The notes beneath the pieces were generated by a model. The model was not told the origin of the DNA. It saw only the letters and a program-made list of their open reading frames with translations, and searched no databases. DNA of 64,000 nucleotides, from assembly GCF_963675165.1 (NCBI RefSeq), contig NC_087384.1:2440501-2504500 (forward strand), in the 5' to 3' direction. This stretch comes from Halichondria panicea. Taxonomy: Eukaryota; Porifera; Demospongiae; Suberitida; Halichondriidae. The position numbers were made by a program, and so were the translations under genes. The stretch's first letter is position 1; the number at the start of each line of letters is the position of its first letter. Below, one piece after another: positions 10,073-56,718 of this stretch.

Positions 10073-12959
10073 ATGGCAGAGAGGTGCTCACCAGTGGTTG
10101 ACATGACAATAGAAGAGGCCCTAGAAATAATGGAAGCTATGATGGATCTGCTTAAGGTACGTATATAAGAAATAACTGTTAGTGAACAAATGTATTTTAT
10201 CAATTCTGCCTCGCAGGCAATGCAAAGAGTTACGTATAAGTACAATATACAAGTTTCACTGCAAACACCATAGATACATGTCAAGCGCTTTAGCTGATTA
10301 AGAATTTGAACACAAAGCAACTAATTTTAAAGACATTAACTCAGCAATAATGCACAGAAACTTTTGAGATTATTCTATAGCACAAACTGACTTCTTACCT
10401 CTAATAGATAATTATAGTTATCATACACGATATAATATATAACATATAGTGCAAAATTTTCGAGGTTGTCGTGCACGAAATCTTTCTGCTATAATGTGTA
10501 AATATTAAAGGCGTGGCTTCCAGTAAGCAATCAACCCACGAACGTTATGCAACGAAATGCTTTTAGAGGCCTTTCTACAAAAAAATATAGTGCCTCGAAC
10601 ATTTTGCACTATATATACAGGTATACTTTTATGTTAGTGACCATTTTCAGCAAAAGTTGCCTGTAAGGTGCGGCCTACGAGTACCGGAGATAGTACTAGG
10701 AGGGTCGCTAGGCACAAGGACAGAGTTACCAGAACAATACGATGCTGACATCATCATATACTCACCAGGTATATATATACCATGCAGAGGCTTATTACCA
10801 TAACCACCTGTTTTTTCAAGCAGTTAAAAGAGTTTTGTCGACAATTTAACTCTGCATATAGCTACATTTCAACGCTAACCCTCTCACAGACATCACAATT
10901 AAGGAGGTGATAAGGAATGGCTATGGACTCTGGCTAAACCAGATCAATCAGTTAATGCACTCGGAGAAAGACCTAGCTGAGGGGTTCGAATTCCATGCCC
11001 TCACAGACAAGGGGTTGCAATTCACATTTGAGGGGATTGAGATTGAGATTATGGTCAGTCCAAATTGGAGAAAGCCAGCTGACTTCTACACCTTCCTAGA
11101 GACTTTGAGACCAGCACACAGAAAATTGTGAGTTGGTGCTAATTGGCAGGTAATTTATTATTACGCTTTGGTCTGTCTTTGTATAGGTTTACTCAGTGTG
11201 CTGCAAAATGGCAGATCCAGTTTCTAAAAAATCAAGCTACTCGGGTGAGAAAGAGACCGTTTACTATACTATAGGTGTCTTATATGTGAAAGTATAGGAG
11301 ACGTTTTAGTCTTGCTTACAAGCATGATTATGAGAAAGCAGTTCTGCCATTACAGATAATTTCATTAATACATGAAAAAAGTATCATCACTATGATTATA
11401 ATAAAATTAATGCAGTGTGAGTTTTGTTGTTTATCCCATTTAGAGAGGTAATTTTTGTCGTGAGTTCATTCGTCGAGCAAAGGCATGGCGTGCGCTCAAG
11501 TGGAGGCAGTGTACGGGGGGACGAGGGAGGCCCTCCTCCTATCTGCTCTCCCTCCTGGTCATCCACGCCTACGAGAATGCTCACAAGACACTGGGCGTGT
11601 TCTCCACACTCAGTCCAGAGACACTAGCACAACAGTGAGTGGGCGGGTAGAGAGGTAACCAAGGGTACAATGGGCACAATGTACATCAATGAGTGCATGG
11701 GTGAATAAGGGAGGTATATATAGCTAAGTACATGCATGCATGTACAGTTAGTGGGCAGGTAAGGAAGTAACTATGAGAGCATAGTATATATATAGGCCTA
11801 GCTAATAATTACATAAATCGAAAACATACAACTGTATAATATATATAATTTATATACAACATAATTATATACATTGCCTATAAATTATATTTCTGCAACT
11901 TTAAGTGCTATAATTATAGCTGATTACTTACTAAAAAGTATTAATAAATGAACAAAATTAATTGTTTATACAATGTACATATGGTAGCAATCACTGATTT
12001 GCACCAACTGCATGTAATGAAATTACTTGCAGTGCCACAGAAGAGCTAAAGAGTATTGTATACAACTGTGACAAAGTCAAGTGAGTTATAGCCGGTTATT
12101 CATTTAACATAAAGGCGACAAGCTGTTGCTATAACAGTATATAAAGTGGAACCTCGGCTACTCGACTTGTCATATTCAGTTCACCACGATATAATCATGT
12201 TCAACTAATAATCAGAAAACGAGCGAGTCCATTAAATATGCATGCGCATTATATCTGTTACCATGCTGCATGCACCATGCATGGAGACATATTTTCTGCG
12301 CATGTGCAGACGACCACATACACTAAATTTGCACTGCTGTTTGTTAAGTGGGTAGATAAAGGCGTAGTTTATCCATTCGATTATCCGGTATATAATTATT
12401 CAGATATCTGGCCTGCCTCTGGAAATTAAGGTGTCCGGATATTCAAGTGAAGTACAACCTGTGCCTTAATCTTATAAAGTGAACCAAGCTCTTTTCTACA
12501 GTAAAATTTGTAGACGTGTGCCTTGGCTAGTTATTGTAGCAGGATAGACTCACTTAACCAAATTGATAATCTTTGCACAACTGAACTTTACATAAGATCA
12601 ACTGCTGTTACATAGTTCCTATGACATCATACATGACATCATACACTGTTATATTATAAATAGTACCAACTGTCACAAAATTAATCCCCCCCTACGCACG
12701 CACGCACGCACACACACACATACACACGTGCAGCATATACTGGGAGCAGTGCTACGCTATGAAGCAGTACCCTACCCTAGTTCCCCCGAGGGCACCTCGC
12801 ATCATTGACCCGGCTAACCCCACACATAATCTGTACCTTACAGGGCTCGCAAATTTTGAGCCCTACAAAAGGTGTGGAGAATACGACACTGGGACGGGGG
12901 ATTGGAGTTCTCTAATCAGAAACATTGGAACGCTAGACTTAAGTAAACCAGTAGAATGA
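10073..12959 (+). CDS. OAS-like gene A1, seven exons, 320 aa
   Basis: This encodes a 2'-5'-oligoadenylate synthetase relative, a nucleotidyltransferase that polymerises ATP into 2'-5'-linked oligoadenylate. Exons: 10073-10156, 10651-10768, 10890-11127, 11187-11244, 11444-11634, 12033-12080, 12734-12959. The summed length is 963 nt, in frame, ending at TGA. Exon 2 carries the loop GGSLGTRTEL (from residue 45) and the metal-binding pair in YDADIIIYS (D59, D61). Exon 3 carries EIEIMVSPNW, where the third catalytic Asp of the family is Glu (residue 120). Exon 5 has RRAKAWRALKW and SSYLLSLLVIHAY. Exon 7 has IYWEQCY and PRIIDPANPTHNLY, the conserved C-terminal core. ATG 10073 is the first start in frame. 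A decayed pogo-like MITE occupies intron 6. D-to-E is conservative, so activity may persist. The exon 5 acceptor is my least certain junction. Confidence 0.88.
12140..12465. mobile_element. Decayed pogo-like MITE in OAS A1 intron 6
   Basis: The ends resemble AGTGGAACCTCGGCTACTCG on the left and a degenerate inverted copy (GAAGTACAACCTG) on the right. This pattern matches three better preserved copies at 26042, 29311 and 35663. Divergence is too high to see a target duplication. Confidence 0.45.
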
Positions 12960-15341: not shown

Positions 15342-15643
15342 TGTTAGAGGAAGTAATTGATCAAGTGGTAAACCACAAGTGTAGTGATTAGGTGAACTCT
15401 TCACTTAGACTGTACATCTAGATTATTCTAGTTAATGTTTATTCTAGAACTGTAGCTGCTGCTGAACTTTGACATTAGAGAACTAGGTAGAACATTCTAG
15501 AGTTATATGTGTTCTGTATATAAGTTCTTGAGTTTTGTGCAAGCTAGGTTATGATTAGGTTATGATTAGGTTATGAGTGTTATGCTGTTTCTGTTGTCTA
15601 CTGAACAAAGTGTGACTAGTGTCAACTGCGATATCTGCGAACA
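15342..15643 (+). repeat. copia 5' LTR
   Basis: The LTR is 302 bp and starts TG and ends CA. A probable TATA box (TATATAAG) lies at about 15517-15524. A short internal tandem repeat of GGTTATGATTA follows near 15549-15575. The sequence matches the 3' LTR base for base as far as I can read, implying recent integration. Confidence 0.95.
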
Positions 15644-15660
15644 GGTTATGGGCCCAGATC
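15644..15660 (+). promoter_or_regulatory. copia primer-binding site
   Basis: GGTTATGGGCCCAGATC begins at the first base after the LTR. GGTTATGGGCCCAG is complementary to the anticodon-arm region of initiator methionine tRNA. Drosophila copia uses this same unusual internal priming site, with a half-tRNA, instead of the tRNA 3' end. Confidence 0.8.
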
Positions 15661-21219: not shown

Positions 21220-22952
21220 ATGTCTAGGTTACCTAGGCTGTATCTCACTACAGCTGAAGAACGAAAATGGGAGAGAAAACTTGAAGAACAGAGCCACAGG
21301 TATTCCGAGGAACAAAAAATTACGGCAGCTACTTTCGAGCATGTCGATGAACCTCAGCCGACTGGTCGTTTCAAAGTGGATGATGCTAGAGCATTGGTGA
21401 TTAATACAGTTATGAAAGCAACAGAAAGAGTAAGGGCTTAAAATACCAAGCTACCGTATATTATAGCTGGTTATTTTCGAGACACGAAATTTCCAGGTTT
21501 TCGAGGATTGACCCAGAAACACGAAAATTGGTTTACATCCGGTTTAAACCTATCTACTGTAGGGGTGTGGTCATTTGAACCTCTATCCTAGAAATAAAAT
21601 CCTTGAAATGTTTTATTTGGGCAATCTGTGAAAATAGCCCGCTATGCGATATTATAATACTGTATATAATTATAGAGAGTCATAATTATATATAAATACA
21701 CACTCATTATGTCAATTTGCGTATGCTGCATAATTATATAGAGAGAGTTTCAAAAGGAATGCGGTATTTTAAAGACTAAATTATATGAGGGTGGATCAGT
21801 CAAACAAGGTACAGCTGTACCTGGATGCTTTGACATTGACCTGGTGCTTTTCTCTAAAGGTAATTTAAATAAACCGGCCATTGTACCTCTCCCTGCATGG
21901 CTTATTGGCTTTATTCTAAACACAGATTTGAAATCGATAGATTGCATTAAAAACAAAGGCTATCCTGAGACACTTGAAAAAGTTGACGAGTATTTCGAGA
22001 AACAATTCCAAGAAAAGTATCACTGTGAAGATAAACAAGGAGTAACAGTGAAGTTCACATACAAATTGACTGATGATCGTAAAATCACAGTGAAGCTAAG
22101 CTTCTCCTGCTACTGGGACCCTGGTAAGCCTGAAGAGCTTTTTGATATGCTTGAAACAATCGACTCACATGAGATAAGAGAACTGTAAGTGATAATAACC
22201 ATAATCCTATATAATTATACAGTATAGACTCTTGTTAATCCGATCACCCTTGGGCCCGGCCGACAGTGCAGTTTTGGCTGCAATAACGATGTGGCTGCGT
22301 TTCAGAAAGTATATAGCCACAGCTAAATAGCCACTTTGATAATGAATCACTTTGTTCTCTATTTATGCTATTGTTTGGGTATATAATTGGCCTAGAGCAC
22401 GCGATGTGCCAGAATAATTATGCCTCGGTGCGCATGCGCAAGTGAGGTATACGGTAGTGTGTTTATGTGTGTGTGTATAGACTGTTTCAGCTGCTCAAGG
22501 ATCAATGAAATGCAAGTAAGAGTTTCTATAGGCTTCTAGTCATGTTTTCTTGGCTTAATTGGTATTTGTGGATTTGTAAAACAAAGCTTCATTCTCGAGT
22601 TATGCCTAGTTTTGCTTATACTTGGAATGCCATTGCAGCCTTTTCAGAAGAAGAGTCCGTAGCAAAACTTGTTCACCAGTGTTGCTACTCTACTTAGTAG
22701 TTAGCTCTGCACTAGTATTGGTAGCTGCAAGAGTGAGAAGAGGGCTACAAGGCTCTGCTGACTTTTTTTTTTTGCTGTTTTATATATCGACTTAAATTTT
22801 TTCGTGCTATCGCGCGACCTGAGCACCCTTCTACTGATATTCCTAGAAACGCCACTGCTTTCTCATGGCAGAGTTCAAGTTTATGCAGGTGAAAATAACT
22901 TTTGATGACAAATTGTTATGCCTCGGTGCGCATGCGCAAGCGAAGTATACGG

Positions 22953-22997
<45 letters not shown>

Positions 22998-25900
22998 CGT
23001 GTCTGTTTGTCTGTCTGTCTGTGTGTGTATAGACTGCTACAGCTGCTCAAGGATCAATGAAGTGCAAGTAAGAGTTTCTATAGGCTTCTAGTTATGTTTT
23101 CTTGGATTTTAATTCGTGGATTGGCAAAATAATGCTTCGTTCTATAGAGTTATGCCTATACTTGGAATGCCTTTTCAGAAGAGCACGTATATATAGCCAA
23201 ATTTATTTCAATGAGTGTTGCTACTCTACTTAGTAGTTAGCTCTGCACTATAGAACGCTAGCTATTGGTAGCTGCAAGAGTGAGAAGAGAGCTGCAAGGC
23301 TCTGCTGATGGCAGCCATTAATTTTAGACTTGAACTTTGGCATCGATCGTTTTTAACAACAATCATGGTCGATCATTACCCACTCTTTGAGTTTGCATGC
23401 ATCAATGAAGAATGTTTATTATGTGTATAAAATTAAGCTTTATGTTATGTAGCTTTGGCATCTCCACCGAGGCATCAGCACCTGCGGTGCTTTCATTGAA
23501 TTAGCTGGAGCTAATAAACGCCACTCTTGAACAGTGGCCTCTCTCGAATTGTAGCCTCCTCTTTCAGCAAAATGAAACATTTAGTATAGCCACGGCTCCT
23601 GCATGATCAAGCATATACGGTAATACTATATATAGGACAGCCAGAAGTGACCAATATAAAAGAATATAGCGAGTTGGCTGCGTTTTGAGCAATATACAAC
23701 ATAATAATAATGATCAAGCTAGCAATCGGAGCCAAATGAAGCGACCAGTATATTGAGGTGACCGTATTTCAGAGAGCCAGATTAGCGAGAGTCTATACTT
23801 ACTGTATATAATGTATACGGTTACCTCATGTATGAGATATGACCACTCAGGTGCATTAAGGCACGTCCAGAATCAAGAAAAGACCAACGTCACATACGTT
23901 GAAAAGTGTGCGATATTAAACATATCAATTTGACATTTTGTTTTCTCATAAAAATTTAAGTTTCCTTAATCAAAAATAAAGATCATGTGATTATCATGTG
24001 ACCAATTAACATGAAATTTCATTGTAAAACTAATTATAAATAAAGCATTTGTTCCAGGTTAGTTAGATCCTATCTTTTCCAGGAATCCTGATGTACATAT
24101 CATATACTGATGAAATCCTGCTGCGCAAAAGCAGATTCATAGGTAATCATGGTCTATACAAACAACAAGCTAATATTTACCTGAATTGTCCCTGATTTCT
24201 CCTCCTAACTTTCTTGCTTGGCTGCACTCTGTCTTGCGCAGCAGGAAACAAGTTCTCTACTATCTAATAGTCTTAGTTAAGGCCTTTAATAGCTACTAGG
24301 TAGCCTACAACAAATGCTTTCAGGGTTTTACTCGATCAACTAGCTACGGTCAACTTTAATAAATTAAGTACAGTGTCATGTGACCCAAGCTCCGCCCTCA
24401 CTAGTAATTGCAGACATTTGCCACCCACGCACGTGATAAACATTCCAAAGCGATGACGTCGCGCACATGAATATCATTATAACAAAATTCCATGTCATTT
24501 TAATTTGGACAGTCCTTAATACCCCTGAGCATGCATGCTTTGAATAATTATACTCCGACCTATGCACAGAATTATATATACATGCAGGTTCATTCCTGGT
24601 ACATTCAAAATGCAGTCTGACTTTATTAAGTGCGTGGACCCTGAAAATCACCCTAGAGGAAATCATAGGACCTGCCAAAACGTAAAAATTATACCTAGAA
24701 TCATGCAGTTAGTTTGCGAGTGAAGAAAATGAGCCAAATCAGATCAGCAGAAAATGTGACCCTTTGCAAGCTACCATGCAGCATAATATCAGGAGTGTAT
24801 GAAGAGGAGTATCCAACTGTAGCAGTTGTAGTGTAAACCATGTTTCGGTACCAGTATGTCATACTACGTCACTATCAGACCGCATCTTAAGTGGGTGCGT
24901 AGAATTAGTTAAAAATGATATCAGCATACACGCATGTGGTTTGTACCTCCAAGCCCACATTTATGCATGGCTAACAGTTTACACAACTACAAGTGTTAGT
25001 GACGGATTCAATCCGAAATATAGAATGGAATGTGCATGGGAGTCGCATACTCCTCTTCATACACTCCTGATAATATATACCAGAGATTTTGCGATTTTAT
25101 TTTTTTGAAGTGACACAAGCTGGCCTCCACAAATAACGTAGGCGTGGCTTACGGGAACATAGGAATGCAGACAGGCAACAAGACTAAATGAAATTTTTAC
25201 TCACGAAAACCACCGTTTCTCAATTAAGTTGAACGATTTTTTACCCCACGAAAATTACCTGCTATATACAGTATATACATGCATTGTTATACAGATACAT
25301 CATCTGATTAAAAGGGCAAAAAAGTGGAGAAACAAACAAGATTGGACAGTCCACACTGAACATGGAGATCTACATGGCGAGCCTGGCTCCTATCTCATTT
25401 CCTTGCTAGTGATCACAGCACACTTTCATGTCGAAGAGAAGTTCGGGGAATACGGGTCCAAAACACAGCATTTTAGGCAGTATACAGCCAGGTATATAAC
25501 CCTTTATAATGTTTATATATCTGTCTGTCTTGACATCTGAGGTTGTACGAGTGTACCTAACAAAAGTCATGAATTATATAGAGTGACTGATGAATTCAAG
25601 AGAATTGTTAAGCAGATAGGAGAAAAAGAAGACTTTGGGTGAGCTAGTACCGTATCTGGAGTTCTGTGATGTTATTTTCGTATGAAACCCTATATATAGG
25701 CATGGTTTACCGGAATGCATGTATAATGATGCAAAAGAAATTTTTAGTCACAAAAAGTACCGCTGTTCAATTTTTTTACCCCATGAAAATTACTTAGGGT
25801 GACATAAAATTATTTTCACCATTGTCAAACGTAGACTTTTCTGCGATTTCAAGTACTGTTTAGTTCATTTTGCTGGTATTAAATTCTGCTAAAAGTTGTG

Positions 25901-26823
25901 AAATCACAGTGTTTGTAATTAATTACTCGTAATAATTTTATGTGGTTTCTATAATCATTCCCGAGTACACATTTTTGCGATTTTACTCTCATCCGCAGAA
26001 TTAGCAGAAATTAATACCCAATTTTATGTCACTTTTAAGTACAGTAGAACCTAGCTAATCTGGACCCTTTTTAAAGTTCGAAGACCGGACAAAAAATAAT
26101 ATTAAACTGAAAAGAAGAGGGCTGTAGAATAGACTACTGCACATGCGCACTTTATTAATAAACTGCTCAATATACCTCACTGAATACAATGGCTATACTG
26201 CAAAGAAAACGAAAAGAGCTCACAAGACTCGCTGTATATTGGAGAGAAAGTTGAGATAAAATTAGCTAGCAGCTTTCCTTCTGGCCACAGTAATATCACA
26301 CGCATGCATTTGAGTGTTCTTTGTTAATGATACTTAATGACATCCGAAATTTTCATGTATATTTGAATGGGGGTTTGGTCCTGCTCATTCAGATTAGCGA
26401 GGTTCTACTGTATATATATATATATATAAAGTCCTTTATAGCGCTTTGTTTTCGAGGAGCACAATTTTTAAGGTTGAAGCCAATCCGCGGAAACTGCATT
26501 TTAGCTCCTCAAAAGTAAAGTGCCTTACATTATTGAAACAATAATTGATATGAAGCACTATAATGATGACATACATGTACCTTGCATGCACTATTACTCT
26601 TAATAGTCCAGTGCCTTTCAAAGCTAAAGACTCTGGGCTAAAGATGATCCGAGAGAAGTACTCTCACCTCCTTCCTGCTCCGTGGTGGCTGATTGACCCG
26701 GCTAATCCTGCCAACAATGTGTACATCAGTGGCATGTCTGGTTGGAGGAAGGACAAAGGATGGCAGGAATTTGCTACAAAGGTGGACAACATTGACCTCA
26801 CCATAGACGTCCAGCAGCAGTAG
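21220..26823 (+). CDS. OAS-like gene B1, seven exons, 383 aa, active site altered
   Basis: This is the only reconstructable subfamily-B OAS relative. Exons: 21220-21429, 21742-21859, 21926-22184, 24588-24681, 25295-25491, 25582-25638, 26607-26823. They sum to 1152 nt in frame, with the same junction phases as the A genes. Exon 1 is long (70 aa) and charged, starting MSRLPRLYLTTAEERKWERK, unlike the about 25-aa first exon of the A copies. Exon 2 keeps GGSVKQGTAVPG and the FDIDLVLFS metal pair. In exon 3 the strand that should hold the third Asp reads TVKLSFSCYW, with Lys (22093-22095) at the catalytic position. Exon 5 has KRAKKWRNK and GSYLISLLVITAH. Exon 7 has APWWLIDPANPANNVY. Intron 3 (2.4 kb) is full of repeats. 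Synthesis of oligoadenylate is doubtful; a nucleotide-sensing, dsRNA-binding or regulatory role is inference. The exon 2 acceptor is weak (no clear pyrimidine tract). Confidence 0.85.
22425..22760 (+). mobile_element. MITE of the GCCTCGGTGCGCATGCGCAA family, copy 1
   Basis: The element starts TTATGCCTCGGTGCGCATGC, contains a palindromic GTGCGCATGCGCA and a GGTATACGGTAGTGTG boundary, then a GT-rich stretch and a conserved body. It lies in OAS B1 intron 3. The same head recurs at 22918 and 26975, and the body recurs inverted at 9240-9480. Confidence 0.7.
22915..23310 (+). mobile_element. Same MITE family, copy 2, with expanded GT tract
   Basis: The head is as in copy 1, followed by a long GT microsatellite (about 22958-22995) and TCTG repeats. 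The body is shared with copy 1 (GCTGCTCAAGGATCAATGAA). It also lies in OAS B1 intron 3. Confidence 0.7.
24789..25070. mobile_element. 282-bp MITE in OAS B1 intron 4
   Basis: The inverted ends are TCAGGAGTGTATGAAGAGGA and its exact complement at the right. A 5-bp direct repeat TAATA flanks it (24784-24788 and 25071-25075). No coding capacity. Confidence 0.8.
26042..26410. mobile_element. Pogo-like MITE in OAS B1 intron 6
   Basis: The ends are CAGTAGAACCTAGCTAATCT and the inverted GATTAGCGAGGTTCTACTG. TA dinucleotides flank both sides (26040-26041 and 26411-26412), the target duplication of Tc1/mariner/pogo elements. Confidence 0.8.
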
Positions 26824-27144: not shown

Positions 27145-27261
27145 ATTGGAATGCAAGGCCTCGGGGAAGTAGAACCGAGCGGGGGAGAAGACATTAAAAA
27201 ACGATGGGAGATATTTGCAAAGAAAATTAAAACACTTAATCTTGTGATGAACATCACATAG
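27145..27261 (+). pseudogene. OAS subfamily-C exon 7 fragment
   Basis: A short frame with GLGEVEPSGGEDIKKRWEIF and then TLNLVMN and a stop matches the end of the C-type copy at 42932-43148 almost residue for residue. Everything upstream of this last third of exon 7 is missing and replaced by a MITE. The 3' flank (GGTCATTTA, CTTTACAAGCACAT-like) is also shared with the 43.15-kb copy, so this is a duplicated and truncated gene. Confidence 0.8.
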
Positions 27262-30002: not shown

Positions 30003-30862
30003 GCAAAATGGTGGGTGGGCTATTAATTTAGAAAACTTTCCATGCACGTTTTTCTCTTAAGGGATATCAAGAAGCTGGTGAAGAATATTGCTAAAAATCA
30101 AGACTTATATATCACTGAGTTTTTGGTGCTCCTTGCCTGTATAATAAAGGAATTAAGAAGTGCATATTATAGAGTGAGTTGCTTTATCATTTACTATACT
30201 ATAATTTATGTATAATATTATACAGTGCAACATATGCACCGCGGTTGAGTTAGCCCGCACAGAATCAGGGAAATTAGGAACTGGAAAAATGGTGGATGGT
30301 CTGCTATTGATACTATGGACATGCAGAATTCTTTTCACTTACTTGCTTATAGAATTATGACCAAGGATATCAAGAAGCTGGTGAAGAGTATTGCTATAAA
30401 CGCACAACAATGTGTATGTACCATAATAAACACATAACGTATACTATAGCTATAGACAACAAAGATTGCAATTGCATTAGCTAAGTAATATGCACTTCTT
30501 AATTCCTTTATTATACAGGCAAGGAGCACCAAAAACTCAGTGATACATTTAGAGATCGAAATCCTCACATAATTGTATATACATCTACATCCAAATAATT
30601 GTGTATACAGACACACACAATATAGCTACAACGCTCTATTAATACAGCATTCACGTCCCTGGGGAAAACCATGTATATAAGTACAGCCGGTACGTACACG
30701 AGAAGCCATGATCATTGACCGGTCTATAACCCGTACAAGAACCTCTACAAACATGCATGGCGTCTGTCAGATTGAGCCACAAAAGAGAGACTCGTTTCCC
30801 AAGAGATGGCAGCTGTTTCTCAGAAAGATCCATCTTATATACATCTAACTGTTGACTTCTAA
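30003..30862 (+). pseudogene. OAS subfamily-C copy, scrambled and truncated
   Basis: This is a broken duplicate of the C gene at 46374-48242. The end of exon 5 plus exon 6 (around GATATCAAGAAGCTGGTGAA) is present twice, at 30003-30130 and 30240-30408. An exon 7 relic lies at 30648-30862, with CATTCACGTCCC, then an altered middle, then AAGAGATGGCAGCTGTTTCT. A segment at about 30108-30170 recurs inverted at about 30470-30545. Exons 1-4 are absent. The lesions are extensive, so no product is expected. Confidence 0.8.
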
Positions 30863-34741: not shown

Positions 34742-35662
34742 GACTGTGTGTGTGTGTTGTGTGTGTGTCTGTGTGTCTGTTCCAGCTGTAACTGCTCAAC
34801 GGTTGCAATGCGACGAAAACTAACAGCTTCTATAGGCTTCTAGCCACGTTCTCTTGGATTTTGATTCGTGGATTAGCAAACTAAAGCTTCTTTCTCGAGT
34901 TATGGCTAGTTTGACTCACATTGAAGGCTGTTGCAGTCTCTTCAGAATCTTTCATAGCATCATCTGTCCGCACAAACTTTCTATTCAACATATGAGTTAG
35001 CCTTGCACTAAAGCGCTAGCTTTTTGTTAGCTACAAGACTCAGAAAATACCTGTTAAAACAGCTAGCTAGCAGTAGCCATTTGTGAAATTGATCTCTTTG
35101 GACACACCCTTTAATTATTCCTATGGATGTAATGCGCATGCGCGCTCATTCCCCAGATCCAGATCCTCCTGGCAGAATCATATTTTTCTTGAGGGCCTGG
35201 TAAGCCACAAAACACTACTATAGATAACAATATGTATGTACACAAGTCTTTTCTTCTTAAATATTATAATTATACACTGCATGAACTACAGATCCAATTT
35301 TCTTCTTTCTTGAGGTCCTGGTATTAAAGCCACATAATACAACAATAGATGCATGTAATAAGTCTTTTCTTCTCAGTGACTTTATATAGATAAGCTAACT
35401 TTATGAAATAATTATGCACTTCCGCTTATAATTAATTGAAAACAAATCTTCTTCTTTGTTGCTTCCTAGATCCTTGAGGTCCTGGTATAAGCAGCCACAA
35501 AACACAACAATGATACCATAATTATACAATTGCAAGTCAGTTTTAGACAGATTATTTTATAAACTTTTTCCTCTTCTATACTTTCTCTTCTATACTTTTG
35601 AGCGAAAGCAAATCATGGCGAGAGGCATTAGCACAGCGCCAGCTTGAACACTAGTTATAATA

Positions 35663-35953
35663 CAGTAGAACCTCGATTATCCGGACACCTTGGTTCCAGA
35701 AGCAGGCCGGATAAGTGAATATGCCGGATAATTGAATAGATAAACCACGCTTGATCCACCCACTTTATTGATAAACAGCAGTGCCACATGGTTGTATGCG
35801 CATGCGCAGAAGATAAGCAGGCATGTCTCCATGGTAACAGCTGCAATGCGCATACGCATTTGAGGGACACGCCCATTTTCTGATCTTGTTATCAGTGATA
35901 ACAAGAAACTGCCAAGCCGGATAATGGAGGGCCGGATAATCGAGGTTCTACTG
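35663..35953. mobile_element. Pogo-like MITE
   Basis: The ends are CAGTAGAACCTCGATTATCC and the inverted GGATAATCGAGGTTCTACTG, flanked by TA on both sides. This is the best preserved of four copies. It lies in intron 2 of the B pseudogene. Confidence 0.85.
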
Positions 35954-37647
35954 TACAAAGAAAGGGCGAATAAATTAAAGAAGAGGGTATATGCAACAGC
36001 AAAACAGCAGAATTCAAATTGTCCATGGGCGAATGAATGTGCACGAATAATTTATAATAAAGGTAGAAATTTCTATTTTCACATTCGTCTGCCCACGATT
36101 TAAATTCTGCTCACTACCGTGTATTATAGATAGTCACTTGCACGCCCTCTCTTTTTTTATGCGCCCTTGCTATTACTATAATTACAAAATATCTACAGGT
36201 TTTACAACTGAAGATTATCTTGCTAACAACGGCTATCCTGAGAAGCTGGAAGAAATCAACAAACACATCAGTGAAAGAAAAACTTAAAGACAACTATCAA
36301 CGCATTGAAATAAAGAAAACGGAAAAGAAAACATACACAGAGCTCATTTTTAACTTCATGCCCACCAAGGACAATCGTATGGAGAGTATCAGAGTGACTT
36401 TAATGCTTTTTCCATTCTGGAAGGATACATCTACATGTACTAAAAAGCTCTTTGATTTGATTTTGGCACAGGATTCTTGGGAGAAGAAGCAGCTGTAAGT
36501 TTTTGAGATACTTATATCCTGAAGCTATTCTATATGCACCTATATACCTATTATATAAAGCCTCTTCCCTGGTGTCATCAAACTCCAGACACAGTATATA
36601 CGGAAAGTTGACAGAGATCACAGAGTTTGTCAGAAAGTAAGAGTTAGTCTATTGTGATTGTCAATGATGTTTCTTTTATATAATAATTATGTATAGATAC
36701 ACGTCCTAATTCAGAGGGCAAAAGCATGGAGAGACATTCAAACGTGGCCCGAGGACAGTGATGACTGGGTACTTCAAAGACCTAACTCATACCTGATTTC
36801 CATGCTAGTTATCAAGGCGTACTATATTATATGAAGTACCAGAGACAGAAAAAGGCAATAAATTGAAACCTTATGCCACCAAGTAATTATCATCTTAATT
36901 TATCATTCCTGCTTTACATTCTATATAACAACAGGGTGACCAAAACGTTTATAAGTATCGTAAAAAGATTAGGACAACTTTATGACTGGGAGTAAGTTTT
37001 TACTGTAATATATGTGCAATGGCTGTGACACTATAATACCTTTTGTGCATCCATGCATGCAGTGAATTGGATGAACCTATAGAGACAAGAGTTTGGTTGC
37101 CATTAGAATTAAATATGCCTGCCTCCTTCCTGCTCCGTGGTGGCTGATTGACCCCGCCAACCCTGCCAACAATGTGTACGTCAGTGGCATGTCTGGTCGG
37201 AGGAAGGACAAAGGATGGCAGACATTCGCGAAGAAAGTGAACACCATTGACCTCACCAAAGACGTTGCATGAGAAGATCCTTGGAGAAGAGAATTAAAAC
37301 TTGCAAGAGACATGAATCCTCTTGCTATAATTATAGCGCATGCACTTTGATTTTTGTGACTTGTGATACCAATACCAATATTCATTTGGTATAAACACAG
37401 GCATTTCAAATTTTCTATAGCACTATAGTACACATGATGTCACTTCTAAAATTAGGTACTGTATATGGTAATTTTCAGGGGACAAAATATTCGTGGTTTT
37501 GTGGTTGAAGCTCTGACCACGAATATTTTACCCACAAATGAAGCGACCTTGACTACCTTTACCTGCAGTGCAATCAGTATACCACGAAAATATTATCCAC
37601 AACATTGTCTAAATATTGCCAAGAGTATATGATAATATTATGTTTGT

Positions 37648-38070
37648 AGGGATTTGGTAAGTGGCTAGATCAGCTACAGACGTTTCTCGAAAGACAGCCC
37701 AAAGTCGCGACAACCAAACAGACCAAGTTTTCTGTCCAATTTAAGTTTGACGACATTATCGACGTTGACCTCTTCGTTAGTCCGTATACTGGAACAACCA
37801 TGTTTACGACTTCCTCAAGGTGTCCCAAAAGAAAAAAGATACGAATAAGTTGAATGTATATATATACGTACAGTATTGTAGGTAACTTTTAAAGGAGAAA
37901 TTAAATATTTGACAATTGTAAAATGCACGGTCTATCGATGTAACTATAAGATGGGGCTGCCGCTCTCCATAATTTGCGATAGTCTAAACTCTAATGTGTG
38001 CGTGTACAAATATACTCTGTGTGCGCTGCTAAATGGCAGGTGAAATTCTTTGAGCAACAACCAAATCAGG
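37648..38070 (+). pseudogene. OAS subfamily-A fragment (exons 3 and 4)
   Basis: The stretch 37648-37851 matches exon 3 of the A gene at 51403, including KWLDQLQTFLERQPKV and the third Asp in DIIDVDLFVSPY, then shifts frame. The stretch at about 38018-38068 matches exon 4 (AAKWQVKFFEQQPNQ). The following flank (TATGTTGACATTAGCCGTAC) matches the region after the A gene ending at 56718. It is a partial block copy with no exons 1, 2 or 5-7. Confidence 0.82.
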
Positions 38071-38395
38071 ACGGTACGATGTATGTTGACATTAGCCGTA
38101 CAATCGGCGACTGAGTGTATTGTTAATCTGACCTTTGAACTGTTTGACTATCTAATAGTGATTGTCTAGAGCTCCTTTTAGAATGGTATCTGCATCGTCC
38201 ATCTTTCAACGTCACACCATGCCCACTGTTGTGCTGGTATGGTGCCTGGGGGAGTGGAGTGTTAAGTGGGGGGGTGGAGTGAGTATGTGGGGAAATAATA
38301 AGCATACGTGCACGTGGGAAGGGGGAGGTAGTTTTGAATTTACTTGCTAAGTCAGCTGCAGAGAATTTGTATGGTAAAAGCCAACCTAATCACAC
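38071..38395. other. Copy of the 3' flank of the last OAS A gene
   Basis: The sequence from TATGTTGACATTAGCCGTAC to about 38390 parallels 56775-57080, including CATCGTCCATCTT and a G-rich stretch before TTTTGAATTTAC. No gene was seen. It marks the boundary of a duplicated block. Confidence 0.55.
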
Positions 38396-40475: not shown

Positions 40476-41876
40476 ATGGCTCATAAAGTGACTAAAGTAC
40501 TCACTATAGAGGAAGCAAAAGTTAAAGTAGACAAACTTGTCACTGCATTCCAGGTAATAGCTCTATACATGAGTTCTACCTGCATGACTCAACTGTATAA
40601 TTGTAAGTGAACATGCTTAAATGTTTATATTACTATCATATACGTATATAGCATGGAGATATCGGCCTAGCTGTGAAAAGAGGTGATCAAAGCTGGCTCT
40701 CTGGGACATGGCACTGCAGTTCCAGGAAAGTTTGACTTGGACTTAGTCATCTACTCTTCAGGTATTTATAAGCCGACATTGAGAGTGTTTAGGAAAACGA
40801 TTATAAAATATATGTATACAATAAATTATTTAGCTAAAAGCTGGCCCATGCATGCATTTCCCACGTACTTTTGTAGATGTAGATGCAAGAGAAATAAAAA
40901 ACACCAGGGCAAAAAGACAGTGCACAACTTTTGGAGATATAGACACGGGCTATGGGAAGTATTTAGACAAACTGAGGATCTTCTTACGCAGTGTGCCGGG
41001 AGTGACGCTCAGCAAAACCAAACCACATGCAGTGAATTTCTACTACTATGGAATTGAAGTGGATCTGCTGGTTAGCCCAAACTGGCCAAATCTAGATGCA
41101 CTCTGGACGTTTCTCCAAGATGTTGACCGAGAACACCTTTTCGAGTGAGTACAGTAATATATAGCTATACACTGCATGTCATAATGCCATACATGCATCT
41201 GTTTCAGTTTCTCAGTGAATGCCTCAAAGTGGCAGGTGCAATTTTTCAGTGAGGTTCCAAGTCAGGTAAGCAAACAATAATTATTCTAAGACATACACAT
41301 AACCGTATGACATGTATGCATGCAGGCTAAAGAGTTTGTCAAGCGTGCTAAGGCTTGGAGGAACAAAACATGGTCACACAGTAATGTGGGAAAACCAACA
41401 TCTTATCTCATCTCTCTTCTTGTATTGAAGGCATACGAAAATGCACGAGGGCGTGGTGTCAGCACATCAAGCACCTCATTAATTGCTAGAGAGTAAGTTC
41501 AGTAAAGCAGAATTTTAGTTTATATATATAACACAATTGTGTGTATCTATACCCAACCATGCACGCAGGACAAAAGTTGAGCTAAAGAAGATTGTTAGGG
41601 ATCACACAACTGTTAAGTAAGTCAGATGAATATAAGATTGACACTGATAACCATGCACAATAACATAAACTACAGTATGCACTGGAAGAGGTACTACACT
41701 TATAGTGTATCTACTCTCTATCCACGACTATATATACCAAGTGAAAGAGAACCAAGAATTCTCGATCCGGCAAACCCTACAAACAACGTGTATATAAAAC
41801 TGGGATAAATGGGAACTGGACACAGCTGGTCACTAACATTGACACTATCGATCTCACAAAAGCTGTGGAATATTAA
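40476..41876 (+). pseudogene. OAS subfamily-A copy with two single-base lesions
   Basis: Exons: 40476-40553, 40652-40761, 40877-41144, 41208-41265, 41326-41492, 41569-41616, 41676-41876. All catalytic residues are present: GSLGHGTAVPG, FDLDLVIYSS and IEVDLLVSPNW. Exon 4 has VNASKWQVQFF, exon 5 KRAKAWRNKTW and TSYLISLLVLKAY, exon 7 PRILDPANPTNNVY. In exon 2 one extra base in AGAGGTG shifts AVKR out of frame with VIKAGSLG; an alternative acceptor at 40682 would restore frame but drop about ten residues. In exon 7 one base is missing after NNVY, giving an early stop. With only two single-base faults this is either a very recent pseudogene or an assembly error. Confidence 0.8.
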
Positions 41877-42616: not shown

Positions 42617-43148
42617 ATTAAAACCACTTGCGAGTATACACCAAGTGGTGCATCGCCCAAAATCTATATTCCTTGTTGTAATCTCATACGACAGTGGCTC
42701 AGAGTCTGTGTTGAACAAGCAAAACTACTAGAATTGGCAGAATGGTGAGCAGTCTGGACTGGCTAGAGAAAAATGAATTATTGACCATAATTATCACGTA
42801 TATACAGGATGACAAATGATCTGAAGTATCTAGTTAAAGAAGATATTTTACCTGACGCCAGCTTGGAGTAAGTTCACTCTCAGTATACATAAATATTACG
42901 TATAATAAAAATTATTACATACATATCACAGCCTCATAGTCCCTGGGGAGAACCCCTTAATAATGGAGAAGTACTGTGACATCCTCCCAGACCGGCCATG
43001 CCTCCTCGATCCTGCCAACCCATTCACAAACTTGTACCGACAAGGCCTCGGGGAAGTAAAACCGAGCGGGGGAAAGGACATTAAAGAACAATGGGAGATA
43101 TTTGCAAAGAGAATAGAAACACTTAATCTTGTGATGAACCTCACATAG
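42617..43148 (+). pseudogene. OAS subfamily-C copy, 5'-truncated (exons 5-7)
   Basis: A decayed exon 5 is visible around 42640-42746 (RPKSIFLVVISY in one frame, AKLLELAEW in another). Exon 6 is 42808-42867 (MTNDLKYLVKEDILPDASLE) and exon 7 is 42932-43148, with VPGENPLIMEKYCDILPDRP, LLDPANPFTNLY and a clean stop. Exons 6 and 7 are open and in phase with each other. Exons 1-4, which hold the active site, are absent. The last part of exon 7 is duplicated at 27145-27261. Confidence 0.8.
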
Positions 43149-43490: not shown

Positions 43491-45004
43491 ATGGCAGCCT
43501 CTCGTGCCCCAAATCATACTGAAGCTGAGAAAGCAATTGGAGAACTAGTCCTAAGATTACAGGTACTCGACCCATGCGCCACTGTAACTCTACCCTATAT
43601 AAATATTAATACCCCTACATATATATACTAGCTATTCAGTACTGTGACAAAGCTATATATAATTATATCACAAGTTATCTATAGAATTTTCAATTCAGAC
43701 AAACCTTTCAAAGTACACACAAAGCCCCAGTATTAGAGTGAATGAGATTGTTAAGGCTGGCTCTATGGGACATGGGACGGCTGTGCCTGAACACTTCGAC
43801 ATTGACCTGGTACTCTACTCTAGCGGTGAGTATATATATACGGGACTAGCTATATGCTTGTCTTTACATCATTTAATAAATAATAATTACTGAATGCAAT
43901 TTGAACATGCAGATGTGAACAGAGATACAGTGAACAGAAACGGATACGAAAGCTACTTAGAGAAAATAAGGGCTTTCATAACAGATGGCAGAGTCTTCAG
44001 GGCAGGAATCGTCACTAACATCAATCTGACTAGATACGCTGTTCAGTTTCAATATGAGGGCTACATCGATGTGGACCTCCTAGTCAGCCCTGTCTGGTGG
44101 GGGGGACAACCCAAACATCCACGAGAGCTCTTTGAATTCCTACGAGATAGGGTGCCTAACGATGCTGAAGCCAGGCATAAGTAAGCTACACGCATTACTT
44201 CACATGCATGCATGCTTTATGCTGACTATATAATGAAAGCACGAATGCTCTCTTTGAGTAAATCGAAATCACTGCATGTATGGTTTCTGCAGGTTCAGTG
44301 TGAATGCATCCAAGTGGCAAGTTGCTTTCATGAAGGAGCAAGATTCATCTGTGAGTTCACCAACACATTACGTTCAGTAAATACCTAATAGATTGTCACA
44401 CAAACAAACATAAGGTGAAGCAGCTAATCATACGAGCTAAAGCATGGAGGAACCAGCTATGGCAAAAGAGCAAGGGAGGCCGAGGTCGACCAAGTTCCTA
44501 CTTGCTCACTCTGCTGGTACTTCACGCATACAAGACTTCCTCTGGTACTGCCAAAAGGTACGTAAAATTACAATAATATAATTATATACAAGTTAATATT
44601 TGACACTCCACACAGCACAACACAAAAACTGAAGGAAATTGTCCGCAACCACAGGACAATGAAGTAAGTAACCCAGAGTGCATGTGCATGTTTTTGCAGT
44701 GCATATACGCATGTGCATGATATACAACTGTATACAACCGAGTCTGCATGCATGCTAATTTTCCAGCATTTACTGGGAGAACTACTACAACGCTAGAGAC
44801 TACCCCACCCTCTTTCCTTCGTCCACTCCACGCCTGGTCGACCCGGCCAATCCAGCTAACAATGTCTACCAGTCTGGCATTGGGCCGTACCCACCCAAGA
44901 AAAGGCCATGTGACTACGAGCGTGGGGATGGGGACTGGAGCCAGTTTGTGGACAAAGTGAAATACTTTGACCTTGAGAAGAGTGTGGAGGAGATCACACG
45001 TTAA
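43491..45004 (+). CDS. OAS-like gene A, seven exons, 317 aa
   Basis: This is an intact 2'-5'-oligoadenylate synthetase relative. Exons: 43491-43562, 43699-43825, 43913-44180, 44293-44350, 44415-44557, 44616-44663, 44767-45004. They sum to 954 nt in frame. Catalytic elements: GSMGHGTAVPE and FDIDLVLYSS in exon 2, and YIDVDLLVSPVWW in exon 3, so all three Asp residues are present. Downstream are VNASKWQVAF (exon 4), IRAKAWRNQLW and PSSYLLTLLVLHAY (exon 5), KLKEIVRNHRTMK (exon 6), and IYWENYYNARDYP plus PRLVDPANPANNVY (exon 7). Introns are short (about 60-140 bp) except where noted. This is one of the two best candidates in the window for an active enzyme. Sponge OAS proteins are known to synthesise 2'-5' oligoadenylate; this copy's activity is inferred from residues only. 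Confidence 0.92.
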
Positions 45005-48479: not shown

Positions 48480-48730
48480 ACAAAGCATTCTATAGTTCTA
48501 ACACATCCAAACAAAATGGCACTATTTGGCGGCAAAAGTGGAGCATCCATGTATATACTAAAATCAGTAACATTAACATAATTTTATCGAAGAAGCATTT
48601 AAGGCAATCTCAGTAGAGCAGAATCGGAATAACTATAATAATTATATTTCCGAGGTTATTCTCGGAGGATCAGTGGCCGCAGTCCAGGGGAATTATGATG
48701 TGTTGCATTCTCACCAAGCCTCATGACACG
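48480..48730 (+). pseudogene. OAS subfamily-C copy: exon 1 and 2 relics
   Basis: ATGGCACTATTTGGCGGCAA (48515 on) resembles the first exon of the 31148 copy, with an insertion. About 48620-48715 matches exon 2 (CGAGGTTATTCTCGGAGGAT, then CAGTCCAGGGGAATTATGAT) but has internal deletions that remove bases around the DVD motif. It continues at 50814 after about 2 kb of other sequence. Its position just after a C gene mirrors 30.0-31.45 kb. Confidence 0.72.
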
Positions 48731-51402: not shown

Positions 51403-52828
51403 ATGGCTCACCCGGACATTTTAAACCACAGAAGAGCTAAAGAGGCAGTTAACGAGATTGCTACGCTACTCAAGGTAAATACATAATAAAATTCATACTA
51501 AACCTAAACCACAAGTTGTATAAAGTACTTGGAAATAGTATGACCTACTATTAATACTCTTTGTACATGATGTACGTACAAAGGATAACCAACCAATTGC
51601 CATCGGTGAAGTGGTAAAAGCAGGCTCTCTAGGGCATGGAACAGCCGTCCCGGGGGACTTTGACCTCGACCTGGTCATTTACTCACCAGGTAGGCCAAAA
51701 CAGAGTTACCTGAATTAGCTATGGTATGATAAGCATTGCGTTTTGGTCGCAAATATCTTGTGACAAGTTTGTGAAGAGTTGCAAGTTTTGTGTCGCATAT
51801 AGCTACACACAATTTCAATTCAGATGTTGATACGCATACGATGCGGTACAAGGGATTTGGTAAGTGGCTAGATCAGCTGGAGACGTTTCTCGAAAGACAG
51901 CCCAAAGTCGTGATAACCAAACGGACCAAGTTTTCCGTCCAGTTTAAGTTTGACGACATTATCGATGTTGACCTCCTGGTTAGTCCGTACTGGAACAACC
52001 AACACGACTTTTACGACTTCCTCCGAGGTGTCCCAAAAGAAGAAAGATACGAGTGAGTACAGTTAACAGTATATATAGCAGGTAATTTAAACGGACAAAT
52101 TACATTGCAATTGCAAATACATGGCCATTCCATGCATACAAAGGTGGGGCTGCAGTTTTTAGATATTGCTGTACGTGTGCAGGTACTCTGTGTGTGCAGC
52201 TAAATGGCAGGTGGAGTTCTTTGAGCAACAACCTAACCAGGTACTGTATAGCCTAAGGCATGATCGACAATTACACTGAGCTACAGGTGAAGGAGCTTAT
52301 CAAGCGTGCAAAGGCTTGGCGTAACAAGCTCTGGTCCGAAAGGAAGCTGTCCAACAAGCCCAAGTCCTACCTCATCTCTTTACTCGTACTCAACGCCTAC
52401 GAGAAGGCCACAAAGAGAATGGGAACTTCCAACACAAGGAGGATCGCCGAAGCGTAAGCTAAAAACACTTTAAACTACACAAATGATATGTATATACACA
52501 CTATAGCACAATGGATGAGCTGAAGAATCTCCTCCTTAACCGCCACGGCATAGAGTAAGTCAGCAATATATGGTACGTATTAATTTATCTCATGTATGAT
52601 TGCATTGCATACAGTATCTACTGGGAGAAGTTTTATAGCGTGGGTGGAGGTGTGCCCTCTGGTCCCAACCTCTTCCCAACTTCACTGCCGCGTATCGTTG
52701 ACCCGGCCAACCCAGCCAATAATCTGTATGACACGGGCGTCGCCAAGAGTCGTGGTCAGAGAGGCGACGGGTGGTCTGAGCTGGTAGAGAACATACACTC
52801 AGTGGACCTGCTACAGCGTCTAGTGTAG
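51403..52828 (+). CDS. OAS-like gene A, seven exons, 297 aa
   Basis: This is the most compact intact copy. Exons: 51403-51474, 51584-51689, 51824-52052, 52183-52240, 52287-52453, 52507-52554, 52615-52828. They sum to 894 nt in frame. Exon 2 has KAGSLGHGTAVPG and FDLDLVIYSP. Exon 3 has KWLDQLETFLERQPKV and DIIDVDLLVSPYW, so all three catalytic Asp residues are present. Exon 4 has AAKWQVEFFEQQP, exon 5 KRAKAWRNKLW and PKSYLISLLVLNAYEKA, exon 7 IYWEKFYSV and PRIVDPANPANNLY. Fragments at 37648-38070 come from a close relative of this gene. It is likely an active synthetase judging from its residues. Confidence 0.92.
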
Positions 52829-54412: not shown

Positions 54413-56718
54413 ATGGCAAGGAACAAGGACATCACATTTGATGATGCTATGAGAGTTGTGGATGAGCTTGCAAGAGAAATAAAAGTAAGTCAGGATCGAT
54501 AGTCGATATCAGTGCCACTGATGTGCCCAGGTGGTGGCTAATTCCAATCACACAAATTGCCTGTGGTTTAGCATATTAGTATTATGTGGTAAAACTGTGC
54601 CTATAAGAGGTGGTTATTTTTGTCTAGAGCAATTTTCTCGAGGTAGTTTGTACCATAGATTGAAGAGTTAGAGGGATAGGAAACGGAGTGGTGCACGTGA
54701 TGATTTTACATTGAATCTGCAGTGGAGCCACGAAAATTATCCGCATTACGCCCTATGAACGAGGCTATTAAGCACATTTTTGCCGGGTACCCAAAGCTGT
54801 GTTTCCTCGAGACATCATCTCTTTCAGCAACTTATAACACCCCTATAGTCCATGAGCCACGTGTATAGTACTTGCTAATGACTGACCACACCCAGTAAAA
54901 AGAGACTTTCCAATAAAGTTATATGTTCCCAAGGCTGTTTTAGAGCTATTGGAACATGTAACGTGTAAGCGTGCTGGTTATGACTACTACAATAGGTATA
55001 GACCTAGAAATATAAGTGAGTTGCACGGACTAAGCACAGTTACTTGTAGTTTATTATGCACTGGGTGTAGAAATAGATATTGTTGTGATGGCCTCGATTA
55101 AACCGCAGCGTAGCGCGGATGTTACTCGAGATACAAACCGTTTCCTATCCCTCTAACTCTTCAATCTATGTTTGTACTAATCACCACGACCAGGGTGGGA
55201 ACATATCTGTGTCACATTTACTACATGTATATAATTATGGTAACTAGCATGAACACATATATTCACTAGCATCATAGACATGGCCTGAACAGAGTCCAGG
55301 TGCTCAAGGCTGGCTCCCTTGGTCAGTACACAGCCATTCCAGGCAACTTCGATGTGGACCTAGTGGTCTACTCAGAGAGTAAGTTACTCACTTGGCTGCC
55401 CTACAAACAATATTTTTCGTGCAGCAAATACATATGCTGAGATAAAATGTCGATACTCTACACATAATCATTACATAACAAACCTCGCTATACATAATTA
55501 TAGGAAACCTCAAATAGCGGAAGGGGGCTTACTTTAATTAATGAGACTCAAGTACACTTAATTATACAGGTGTGGATCCAGACACTGTCCTGAGTGAAGG
55601 ATATCGTACGCCTCTACACAAACTGCGAAGCTTTTTGGGAGGTCTACGGAGTGTCATGCTTCAAACACCACTAAAAATGTCTGTGTCACTGAAATACAAG
55701 ACATATGACCAGCAAGATCGAGAGCTATCGATAGACGTTGACGTCTTGGTCAGCCCAAAATGGGAGAATCCAGCAGATCTCTATGACTACCTGAGGAAAG
55801 CCAAACAAGACGGAGCAAAACCTGCCCAATTATTTCGGTAAGCTAAACACACAATAACAACACAACAAGTGTTGAGTTGTAACACTATACCATGCACATT
55901 AGATTCTCAGTGAATGCTTCAAAATGGCAGGTTGCATTTATTGAAAAGCAGGATGATAAAGTGAGTATACACATGTACAATGTCACGAATCTGACACACA
56001 TGTATACAGTAGCTAGGGCATGCGTTTCAATTTGTATACTTAAAATCCTACAGGCTAAAGAACTTATTCGCCGTGCTAAGGCGTGGAGGAACAAAGAATG
56101 GCCTGAGGGGAAGCTATGTACTGGAAGGCCAAAGAGTTATCTCATCTCAATTCTGGTGCTTAGAGCTTATGAGCTGGCATTGAAACAGCACTATGGTGGA
56201 ACTATTGAGCAACGGTAGGGGAACTCCCTTGTGTACAAATAATTATTAGCTTCCGTTTCTACAGAACAACAGCCACTTTGAAGCAGATAGTGAAATCTCA
56301 CCTAACAGCGGAGTACGTTGAGTCTAAAACTAGCCACACGCACTATATGTGTTAGCGAATTGTGAAAACTAACATAATCACATTATTTTGCTTAGACAAA
56401 TGACTAAAGTCAACACATGCAGAATTTCAGTGTCAAACGTTTCTTTCACAAGGTATTTTCCAATCTATGCATGCACACAGTATCTATTGGGTTGACTACT
56501 ACAAACCAGGGGACTACCCAGACTTGTTTCCAGCCAGGCTCCCCCGTATCGTTGACCCTGCCAACCCGGCCAACAACCTCCACAACACAGGCATAATCGG
56601 AGGCAGCACCTACACCTCACACTCGTACTACGAGCAGGGAGACGGCAATTGGACGCAGCTGGTTGGAAAAATTGAGTCTGTCGATTTGACCAAAACTATT
56701 GAACAGATACAAGCCTAA
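54413..56718 (+). CDS. OAS-like gene A, seven exons, 317 aa (last of the array)
   Basis: Exons: 54413-54484, 55270-55378, 55570-55837, 55903-55960, 56054-56214, 56265-56312, 56481-56718. They sum to 954 nt in frame. Exon 2 has KAGSLGQYTAIPG and FDVDLVVYSE; exon 3 has LSIDVDVLVSPKW, so all three catalytic Asp residues are present. Exon 4 has VNASKWQVAFIEKQ, exon 5 RRAKAWRNKEW and PKSYLISILVLRAYELA, exon 6 TLKQIVKSHLTAE, exon 7 IYWVDYYKPGDYP and PRIVDPANPANNLHN. Intron 1 contains a 517-bp MITE. Its closest relative in the window by eye is the gene at 43491. It is likely an active synthetase judging from its residues. Confidence 0.92.
54654..55170. mobile_element. 517-bp MITE in intron 1 of the last OAS gene
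   Basis: The inverted ends begin CATAGATTGAAGAGTTAGAG and extend about 34 bp. TTTGTAC flanks both sides (54647-54653 and 55171-55177), a 7-bp duplication. No protein was seen. Confidence 0.85.

Follow-up and report, generated by a model that had tools for sequence, protein, structure and literature searches.

The locus examined here, in the sponge Halichondria panicea, raises the question of whether a run of OAS-like genes on a single strand is a genuine birth-and-death array, how far such an array reaches, and what its proteins might do. In vertebrates OAS synthesises 2-5A, an antiviral messenger, and reported gene numbers range from one to twelve per species (PMC6307210). Sponge and vertebrate OAS are said to be unlike in genomic structure (PMC2852836), and four sponges are reported to lack both RNase L and interferon (PMC6307210). 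Our overall reading, which we regard as likely in the absence of expression or enzyme data, is that the locus belongs to an OAS birth-and-death array propagated through block duplication and exchange.

Layout of the window and OAS family membership

The window is a 64-kb stretch of DNA without any N. The original prediction, made from the sequence alone, placed about 15 OAS genes, pseudogenes and fragments on the plus strand between 10,073 and 56,718, with five complete open copies and three interleaving subfamilies, and these claims held. The first gene starts with its ATG at 10,073 and the stop codon of the last ends at 56,718, and between them we count 14 OAS-like units, all on the plus strand (Table 1), of which five are complete genes, four are broken and five are fragments. 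Subfamilies A, B and C do interleave (5′ to 3′: A1, B1, two C fragments, C1, B2, the A2 fragment, A3, a C fragment, A4, C2, a C fragment, A5, A6), and the five complete open genes are exactly A1, B1, A4, A5 and A6, each with intron phases 0-1-2-0-2-2. Because of its frameshift, we rejected the window copy of C2 as a plainly open gene. The A2 fragment carries 139 bases at 93% identity to exon 3 of A5. Scanning the window and 29 other loci with HMMs gave 301 exon matches on the array strand and none on the opposite strand. A4 is only 31–44% identical to five other aligned types, and we therefore take the A, B and C types to be old paralogues.

Table 1. Features of the window, with positions counted from its first base.
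Feature	Position	Strand	Remarks
Ankyrin-repeat gene exons	176..7179	-	single repeat in each exon; head-to-head with A1; no gene model built
OAS gene A1, complete	10073..12959	+	7 exons, 311 aa; Pfam OAS1_C 35.7 bits
OAS-like gene B1, complete	21220..26823	+	7 exons, 362 aa; long first exon
C-type fragment, last exon	27154..27258	+	
C-type fragment, last exon	30681..30859	+	
OAS gene C1, broken in window	31148..32650	+	2 frameshifts, 1 stop
OAS-like gene B2, broken	33386..37272	+	three frameshifts relative to hand-built template
A2, A-gene fragment	37650..38073	+	exons 3 and 4 only, frameshift present
OAS gene A3, broken in window	40476..41876	+	2 frameshifts
C-type fragment, last two exons	42808..43148	+	
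OAS gene A4, complete	43491..45004	+	7 exons, 312 aa; triad D-D-D; OAS1_C 50.7 bits
OAS gene C2	46374..48242	+	one frameshift, start of exon 2; OAS1_C 18.8 bits
C-type fragment, exon 2, degenerate	48577..48723	+	
OAS gene A5, complete	51403..52828	+	7 exons, 297 aa; triad D-D-D
OAS gene A6, complete	54413..56718	+	7 exons, 317 aa; triad D-D-D; OAS1_C 33.8 bits

Membership in the OAS family is supported by profile comparison with solved proteins. A profile built from six window genes finds OAS2 as its best solved relative (3.3e-29), followed by OAS1, OASL and OAS3, with E-values for solved OAS proteins running from 3.3e-29 to 1e-6, whereas a bacterial CD-NTase of clade C (CdnC) trails with a far weaker match at 4e-4. 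Pfam searches required spliced models, as single exons gave one sub-threshold match among the nine OAS exons scanned. With such models, five of the six scanned window members match OAS1_C (PF10421) at E up to 0.1. A4, A1 and A6 score above the curated cut-off of 19.9 bits and C2 scores below it, while A5 is among the five matching members without a given bit score. B1 is the sole member for which a Pfam OAS1_C match was sought and none was found, and on its own it matches solved OAS only weakly (E 0.0057), but direct comparison with A4 gives 1e-30 for B1 and 8e-35 for C2, and C2 on its own also matches solved OAS2 at 6.5e-05. The B1 comparison rejects the idea that B is a mere annotation error. 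By sequence profile the array genes are nearer to OAS1/2/3/OASL than to other nucleotidyltransferases, which supports placing them in the OAS family, and failure to assign B and C to the OAS fold, which would have refuted the original prediction, did not occur, with the reservation that B is assigned only through its relatives.

Blocks of the array along the chromosome

The array extends far beyond the window, a point absent from the original prediction. Contig C8 carries nine such blocks between 1.62 and 2.56 Mb (an array of roughly 0.94 Mb), the window being one; three lie on the minus strand and six on the plus strand, forming two arms that point outward. Genome searches at E<=0.01 gave at least 147 matches for A5, 69 for B1 and 134 for C2 (minimum counts in every case), and these matches are confined to this interval or to C5:3.144-3.154 Mb. 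In the window and fetched stretches we find 81 distinct places with the C-terminal exon 7 (79 on C8, 2 on C5) and 71 with exon 2, and no place on the opposite strand. From these, 31 complete gene models of ten types could be built (30 on C8, 1 on C5); in 29 the introns are GT-AG with phases 0-1-2-0-2-2, and two, both A7, require a GC donor. Altogether there are about 13 paralogous types (A1, A3-A9, B1-B2 and C1-C3).

Both block architecture and mosaicism are shown by the comparison of blocks. The nearest relatives of the window block are P2/P3 on its left, P1/M3 in its middle and P4/M3 on its right, and its best partner changes 26 times when 1-kb pieces are taken every 500 bases. Gene order is almost unchanged between M3 and P1, which run in opposite directions and match at 99.7% over shared stretches, and a larger part of M3's inner flank than of P1's resembles the window flank. 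Distant blocks can be 100% identical over some stretches, while certain copies are decaying. C1 and A3, both broken in the window, have open copies in M3 and P1, and C2 has open copies in M1, M3 and P1. This finding of open and broken copies of one type in different blocks supports the birth-and-death claim of the original prediction.

In a tree of the models, each type represented by at least two rows (nine types) comes together as a single group across blocks, with UFBoot at 99-100 and SH-aLRT at 97-100. The A rows do not form one clade (2 changes; they unite in just 3% of bootstraps), and long branches join each other. Among types with at least four copies, of which there are five, within-type dN/dS is low, with pooled values of 0.11 for A5, 0.14 for A1, 0.18 for A4, 0.21 for A8 and 0.27 for A6; the other values are 0.29 for A3 (2 changes), 0.43 for C2, 0.82 for C1 (4 changes) and 1.28 for A7 (one pair). 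Only open copies were used, which biases the ratio downward, and the pairs are non-independent.

Active sites and dsRNA-contact residues

The state of the catalytic triad is shown by the models. The complete A3-A7 and C1-C3 models carry D-D-D. In A1 the triad is D-D-E, the third catalytic Asp being replaced by Glu (IEIEIMVSP) in all seven A1 models that reach that exon; in B1 it is D-D-K, with Lys in the third place; and in B2 the first Asp is Asn and the third Thr. One caveat concerns the alignment, as MAFFT places the third Asp two columns away from pig D147 (mutant chain 4rwo), whereas the HMMER alignment pairs it with D147 for 1px5. Like B1, OASL lacks the full triad. We infer that B1 is probably catalytically dead, although there are no enzyme data.

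Human R195 is an important dsRNA-contact Arg. The array genes are OAS paralogues, as are vertebrate OAS1/2/3/OASL, but they differ in that the equivalent Arg, present in pig OAS1 (R194) and human OAS2, is missing: all 12 types compared have V, I, S, N or T there, and none has a basic residue; the equivalent of human K199 is basic in 6 of 12. Since the dsRNA-contact Arg equivalent is non-basic in every type compared, a vertebrate-type dsRNA switch is improbable, and we infer, again without enzyme data, that activation is likely to follow some other course than that switch. Sponge OAS is reported to be dsRNA-independent (PMC6307210), and for this reason we take the R195 equivalent to mark vertebrate dsRNA-activated OAS and not the whole family. 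At the acceptor-site pair corresponding to pig T187/T190, 11 of 12 types carry changes and thereby share the substitutions reported for four sponge OAS; sponge OAS with an altered pair are described as also making 3′-5′ products (PMC6307210).

Neighbouring genes and the explanation of the array

Upstream of A1 in the window lie exons of an ankyrin-repeat gene; Pfam Ank was found in those at 2249-2446 and 4400-4582, and the remaining exons were assigned by likeness. A genome search places related ankyrin exons head-to-head upstream of all nine blocks. Between the two arms on C8 is a cluster of LRR-transmembrane-kinase-Ribonuc_2-5A genes. The six KEN-domain matches all fall at C8:1.96-1.976 Mb or C3:3.87 Mb, and the C3 locus is likely to be IRE1, though that gene itself was left unread. 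The nuclease motif R-x4-H (R-N/D-x3-H) is present in all three open C8 proteins (RNKTEH, RNKSEH, RDKITH). The 16 best solved matches of the C8 kinase-KEN proteins are all IRE1, with RNase L absent among the best 60 of 267. The C8 proteins share kinase and KEN with RNase L and IRE1 but differ in that leucine-rich repeats and a transmembrane segment precede these domains, and, unlike RNase L, none of the three open proteins scanned has an ankyrin domain. A search through the KEN domain for canonical RNase L (ankyrin, kinase-like and KEN in one protein) did not find it. Genome searches with the OAS1_C, STING and Mab-21 families returned no matches, but the control genomes were equally blank, so no absence is inferred from them. 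The partners listed for KEN are kinase, ankyrin, CCCH, UBI and BRCT, and LRR is not among them (PMC3710099).

The explanation that we prefer is as follows. An old set of about 13 OAS types would sit alongside divergent ankyrin-repeat exons as one unit, and this unit would have been copied with gains and losses to give nine blocks in two outward-pointing arms. Ongoing reshuffling through unequal exchange and gene conversion would follow, and would therefore leave identical stretches in distant blocks alongside decaying copies. Most A and C types, retaining the nucleotidyltransferase active site, may make short oligonucleotide messengers from ATP, 2′,5′-linked and perhaps 3′,5′-linked too. Enzymatic products, regulation and any immune role are inferred, with no expression or enzyme data behind them. 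A functional link between the array and the KEN proteins is a possibility only, without binding or functional data, and we consider it very unlikely that the region is a linked messenger-effector system, in which OAS would supply messengers, ankyrin proteins would read them and LRR-TM-kinase-KEN proteins would cut RNA, as an RNase L split over clustered genes.

Three alternatives must be weighed against this explanation. The one that survives best, though we think it unlikely, is that these are OAS-fold nucleotidyltransferases whose product and role are unrelated to immunity (e.g., stress or nucleotide signalling). In its favour are the altered T187/T190 pair, as in the sponge OAS that make 3′-5′ products, and the four sponges without RNase L or interferon. 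Against it, vertebrate OAS is a family of the immune system, and families driven by conflict often show repeated block duplication, exchange and pseudogenes.

The second alternative, an assembly artefact in which the two haplotypes of a single smaller array were placed one after the other and now appear as the arms, or as some of the blocks, we consider very unlikely. For it speak the near-identical gene order of M3 and P1 in opposite orientation, with their 99.7% stretches, and the runs of N at the right end (C8:2,560,384 and 2,561,315). However, nine blocks are impossible from two haplotypes, the N-free window by itself carries 14 units, and the M3 inner flank is like the window flank more extensively than that of P1. 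Apart from stretch L026, the 287,000 fetched bases also contain no N, although most of the inter-block DNA was unread, so scaffold gaps are possible there. Because the window block is a mosaic whose nearest relative differs on its left, middle and right, simple haplotype duplication is disfavoured; the block identities are mosaic and not allelic, and the collapsed-haplotype copies that would have refuted the original prediction were not encountered.

The third, a mostly decayed array in which only one or two genes still work and the many other copies are carried passively by an unstable region, has in its favour the four broken units among the nine multi-exon window units, plus the five fragments, but it is very unlikely given that 31 complete models of ten types persist and that dN/dS is 0.11-0.27 in the five types with at least four copies.

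Thus we return to the birth-and-death array propagated by block duplication and exchange. What is already described for sponge OAS, namely several genes plus pseudogenes of the family, is shared here, and the difference lies in the genomic order now visible, with nine blocks, two inverted arms, an ankyrin partner and dozens of copies. In the literature searched (titles and abstract openings, mostly open access), no comparable OAS array or LRR-TM-kinase-KEN protein is described. If real, the array would be an OAS repertoire several times above the reported range per species, arranged like an immune-gene supercluster. The Glu (A1) and Lys (B1) active-site variants are natural test cases, and effector candidates are offered by the ankyrin exons duplicated along with the OAS genes and by the LRR-kinase-KEN genes that lie between the arms. 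The array would in this way render testable the role of OAS in animals that lack interferon or RNase L.

OAS units in the window and along the contig

The open frames of the window were compared with each other, which sorted plus-strand exons into four families, and these were joined into gene models by a spliced aligner using GT-AG introns and intron phases, with frameshifts and stops marked. The original prediction was of five complete genes among about 15 2′-5′-oligoadenylate synthetase (OAS) units, and this count held, as the spliced models contain 14 OAS-like units between 10,073 and 56,718. The complete genes are those of types A1, B1, A4, A5, and A6, each with an ATG, seven exons with phases 0-1-2-0-2-2, and a stop codon. 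C1, B2, A3, and C2 are broken, and A2 and another four units, all of type C, are fragments; C1, C2, and A3 nevertheless have open copies in other blocks, the blocks being nine repeated OAS units on contig C8. We also observed an inverted pair of a repeated element (about 34.7–35.7 kb and 53.3–54.2 kb), whose open frames match on opposite strands.

When a profile of six window proteins was compared with solved structures, the top matches were OAS2 (3.3e-29), OAS1, OASL, and OAS3, and bacterial CdnC (4e-4) came next after the OAS proteins. For the Pfam domain OAS1_C, A1, A4, and A6 score above the cut-off, A5 matches with no score given, C2 falls narrowly under the cut-off, and B1 has no match. 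In direct protein comparison, A4 is matched by B1 at 1e-30 and by C2 at 8e-35.

Protein searches of the source genome with three queries (E ≤ 0.01) gave at least 147, 69, and 134 matches, and all listed matches lie on C8 at 1,621,452–2,560,383 or on contig C5 at 3.144–3.154 Mb. On C8, genes at 1.62–1.83 Mb are minus-strand and those at 2.07–2.56 Mb plus-strand, and thus the two arms point outward. The right end of the array adjoins gaps, with runs of N at C8:2,560,384 (200) and 2,561,315 (at least 185) right behind the last block. Those parts of the nine blocks and of the C5 locus that carry the genes were scanned with an HMM, giving 86 hits for exon 7, 73 for exon 2, and 71 each for exons 3 and 5, with none on the opposite strand; after merging, these represent 81, 71, 66, and 65 distinct places, respectively.

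There are 31 complete models (six A1, five A4, five A5, four A6, three C2, two each of A7, C1, and A3, and one each of C3 and B1), of which C5 contributes one, an A6. Intron 2 of both A7 models requires a GC donor (apparently GC-AG), and intron 3 appears to be missing from them, in contrast to the remaining complete types, so the ordinary complete models number 29. Five further models, four A8 and one A9, are open with an unresolved first exon. These gene numbers are lower bounds because only the best search candidates were scored and block edges were cut. The A1 copies in blocks P2 and M2 are truncated by the edge of the sequence taken for analysis, and most DNA between blocks lies outside that sequence.

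Features of the window block and of the wider array on C8
Feature	Position	Strand	Description
Ankyrin-like exons	window 176–7,179	minus	one repeat per exon; two exons submitted to Pfam match Ank
Copia-type LTR element	window 15342–19365		between A1 and B1; identical 300-base LTRs, one 1,111-codon open frame
1.9-kb repeat	window about 48,765–50,664		about 20 near-identical copies listed across genome
A7 gene	C8:1,640,232–1,638,664	minus	open copy
LRR-transmembrane-kinase-Ribonuc_2-5A (KEN) cluster	C8:1,960,813–1,976,790		about five genes, between OAS arms
A7 gene	C8:2,327,000–2,328,501	plus	open copy

Divergence of types and probable exchange between blocks

A4 is 31–44% identical to five other aligned types, and synonymous sites are saturated in 55 of 66 type pairs. 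Copies of the same type across blocks differ on average at 0.2–5% of coding nucleotides, and in the tree each of the nine types represented by at least two rows forms one group across blocks. Of the proposed subfamilies, C is one clade (100/99) and A is not recovered as a single clade; the placement of B1 and of the root is unsure.

Aligned block pieces of at least 500 bases range from about 69% identity (different gene types) up to 99.9%. The nearest partner of the window block is P3 or P2 on its left, P1 or M3 in its middle, and P4 or M3 on its right (P and M being plus- and minus-strand blocks), and it switches 26 times along the block, with some 1-kb pieces 100% identical. From this switching and these identical pieces, we conclude that the pattern is likely one of unequal exchange or gene conversion, not that of two haplotypes.

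The Copia-type element is missing at the corresponding place in P2 and P3. The 1.9-kb repeat is absent from the same place in P4, M3, P1, and M1, and is an insertion in the window block. In all nine blocks, exons of the ankyrin family seen at window 176–7,179 stand upstream of the first OAS gene and head-to-head with it, and thus the duplicated unit consists of ankyrin exons together with OAS genes; C10, C15, and C17 also carry this family, as do other parts of C8.

An LRR-kinase-KEN cluster between the arms

RNase L was sought in the genome by its Ribonuc_2-5A (KEN) nuclease domain, which gave six matches, four at C8:1.9608–1.9765 Mb and two at C3:3.87 Mb. The C3 matches are exon-like and are likely to be IRE1, the C3 gene sequence being unread. 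Three of the C8 genes are each open in one frame (734, 659, and 677 aa), and their proteins have leucine-rich repeats after a signal-like start, then a hydrophobic span, a kinase, and KEN; two further copies are degenerate. The nearest solved relative of the kinase-KEN half is IRE1 (8.7e-49), and the nuclease motif R-x4-H is retained in all three open genes. This architecture is not among the KEN partners listed in passages of PMC3710099. A GCN1-like exon adjoins the cluster. In a genome of 131 Mb, the odds that one such cluster would land by chance within an interval of 0.94 Mb are about 0.7%, and thus a link to the OAS array is possible and suggestive, but it is not shown.

Active site, dN/dS, and inferred function

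The six window proteins, when aligned, show no variation at the Gly-Ser of the P-loop or at the first two Asp. The third Asp is retained in the complete A3–A7 and C1–C3 models, is Glu in all seven A1 models reaching that position, and is Lys in all four B1-type models. Its pairing with pig D147 comes from aligning to 1px5 with HMMER; against the mutant chain 4rwo, MAFFT places it two columns off. Within-type dN/dS is 0.11–0.27 for A1, A4, A5, A6, and A8 (four to six copies each) and, on few changes, 0.29 for A3, 0.43 for C2, 0.82 for C1, and 1.28 for A7.

At the site of pig R194 (human R195), all 12 types have V, I, S, N, or T, and at that of human K199, six have a basic residue. The pig T187/T190 pair is altered in 11 of the 12 types, with both Thr kept in C3, and this resembles the sponge OAS of PMC6307210, which have lost these Thr, have few basic interface residues, and are called dsRNA-independent and capable of 3′-5′ products. 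There are no activity data, and it is from the nonbasic R195 site, the altered Thr pair, and the sponge OAS of that paper that we infer that the array proteins would synthesize oligonucleotides in the manner of OAS, without the dsRNA switch of vertebrates.
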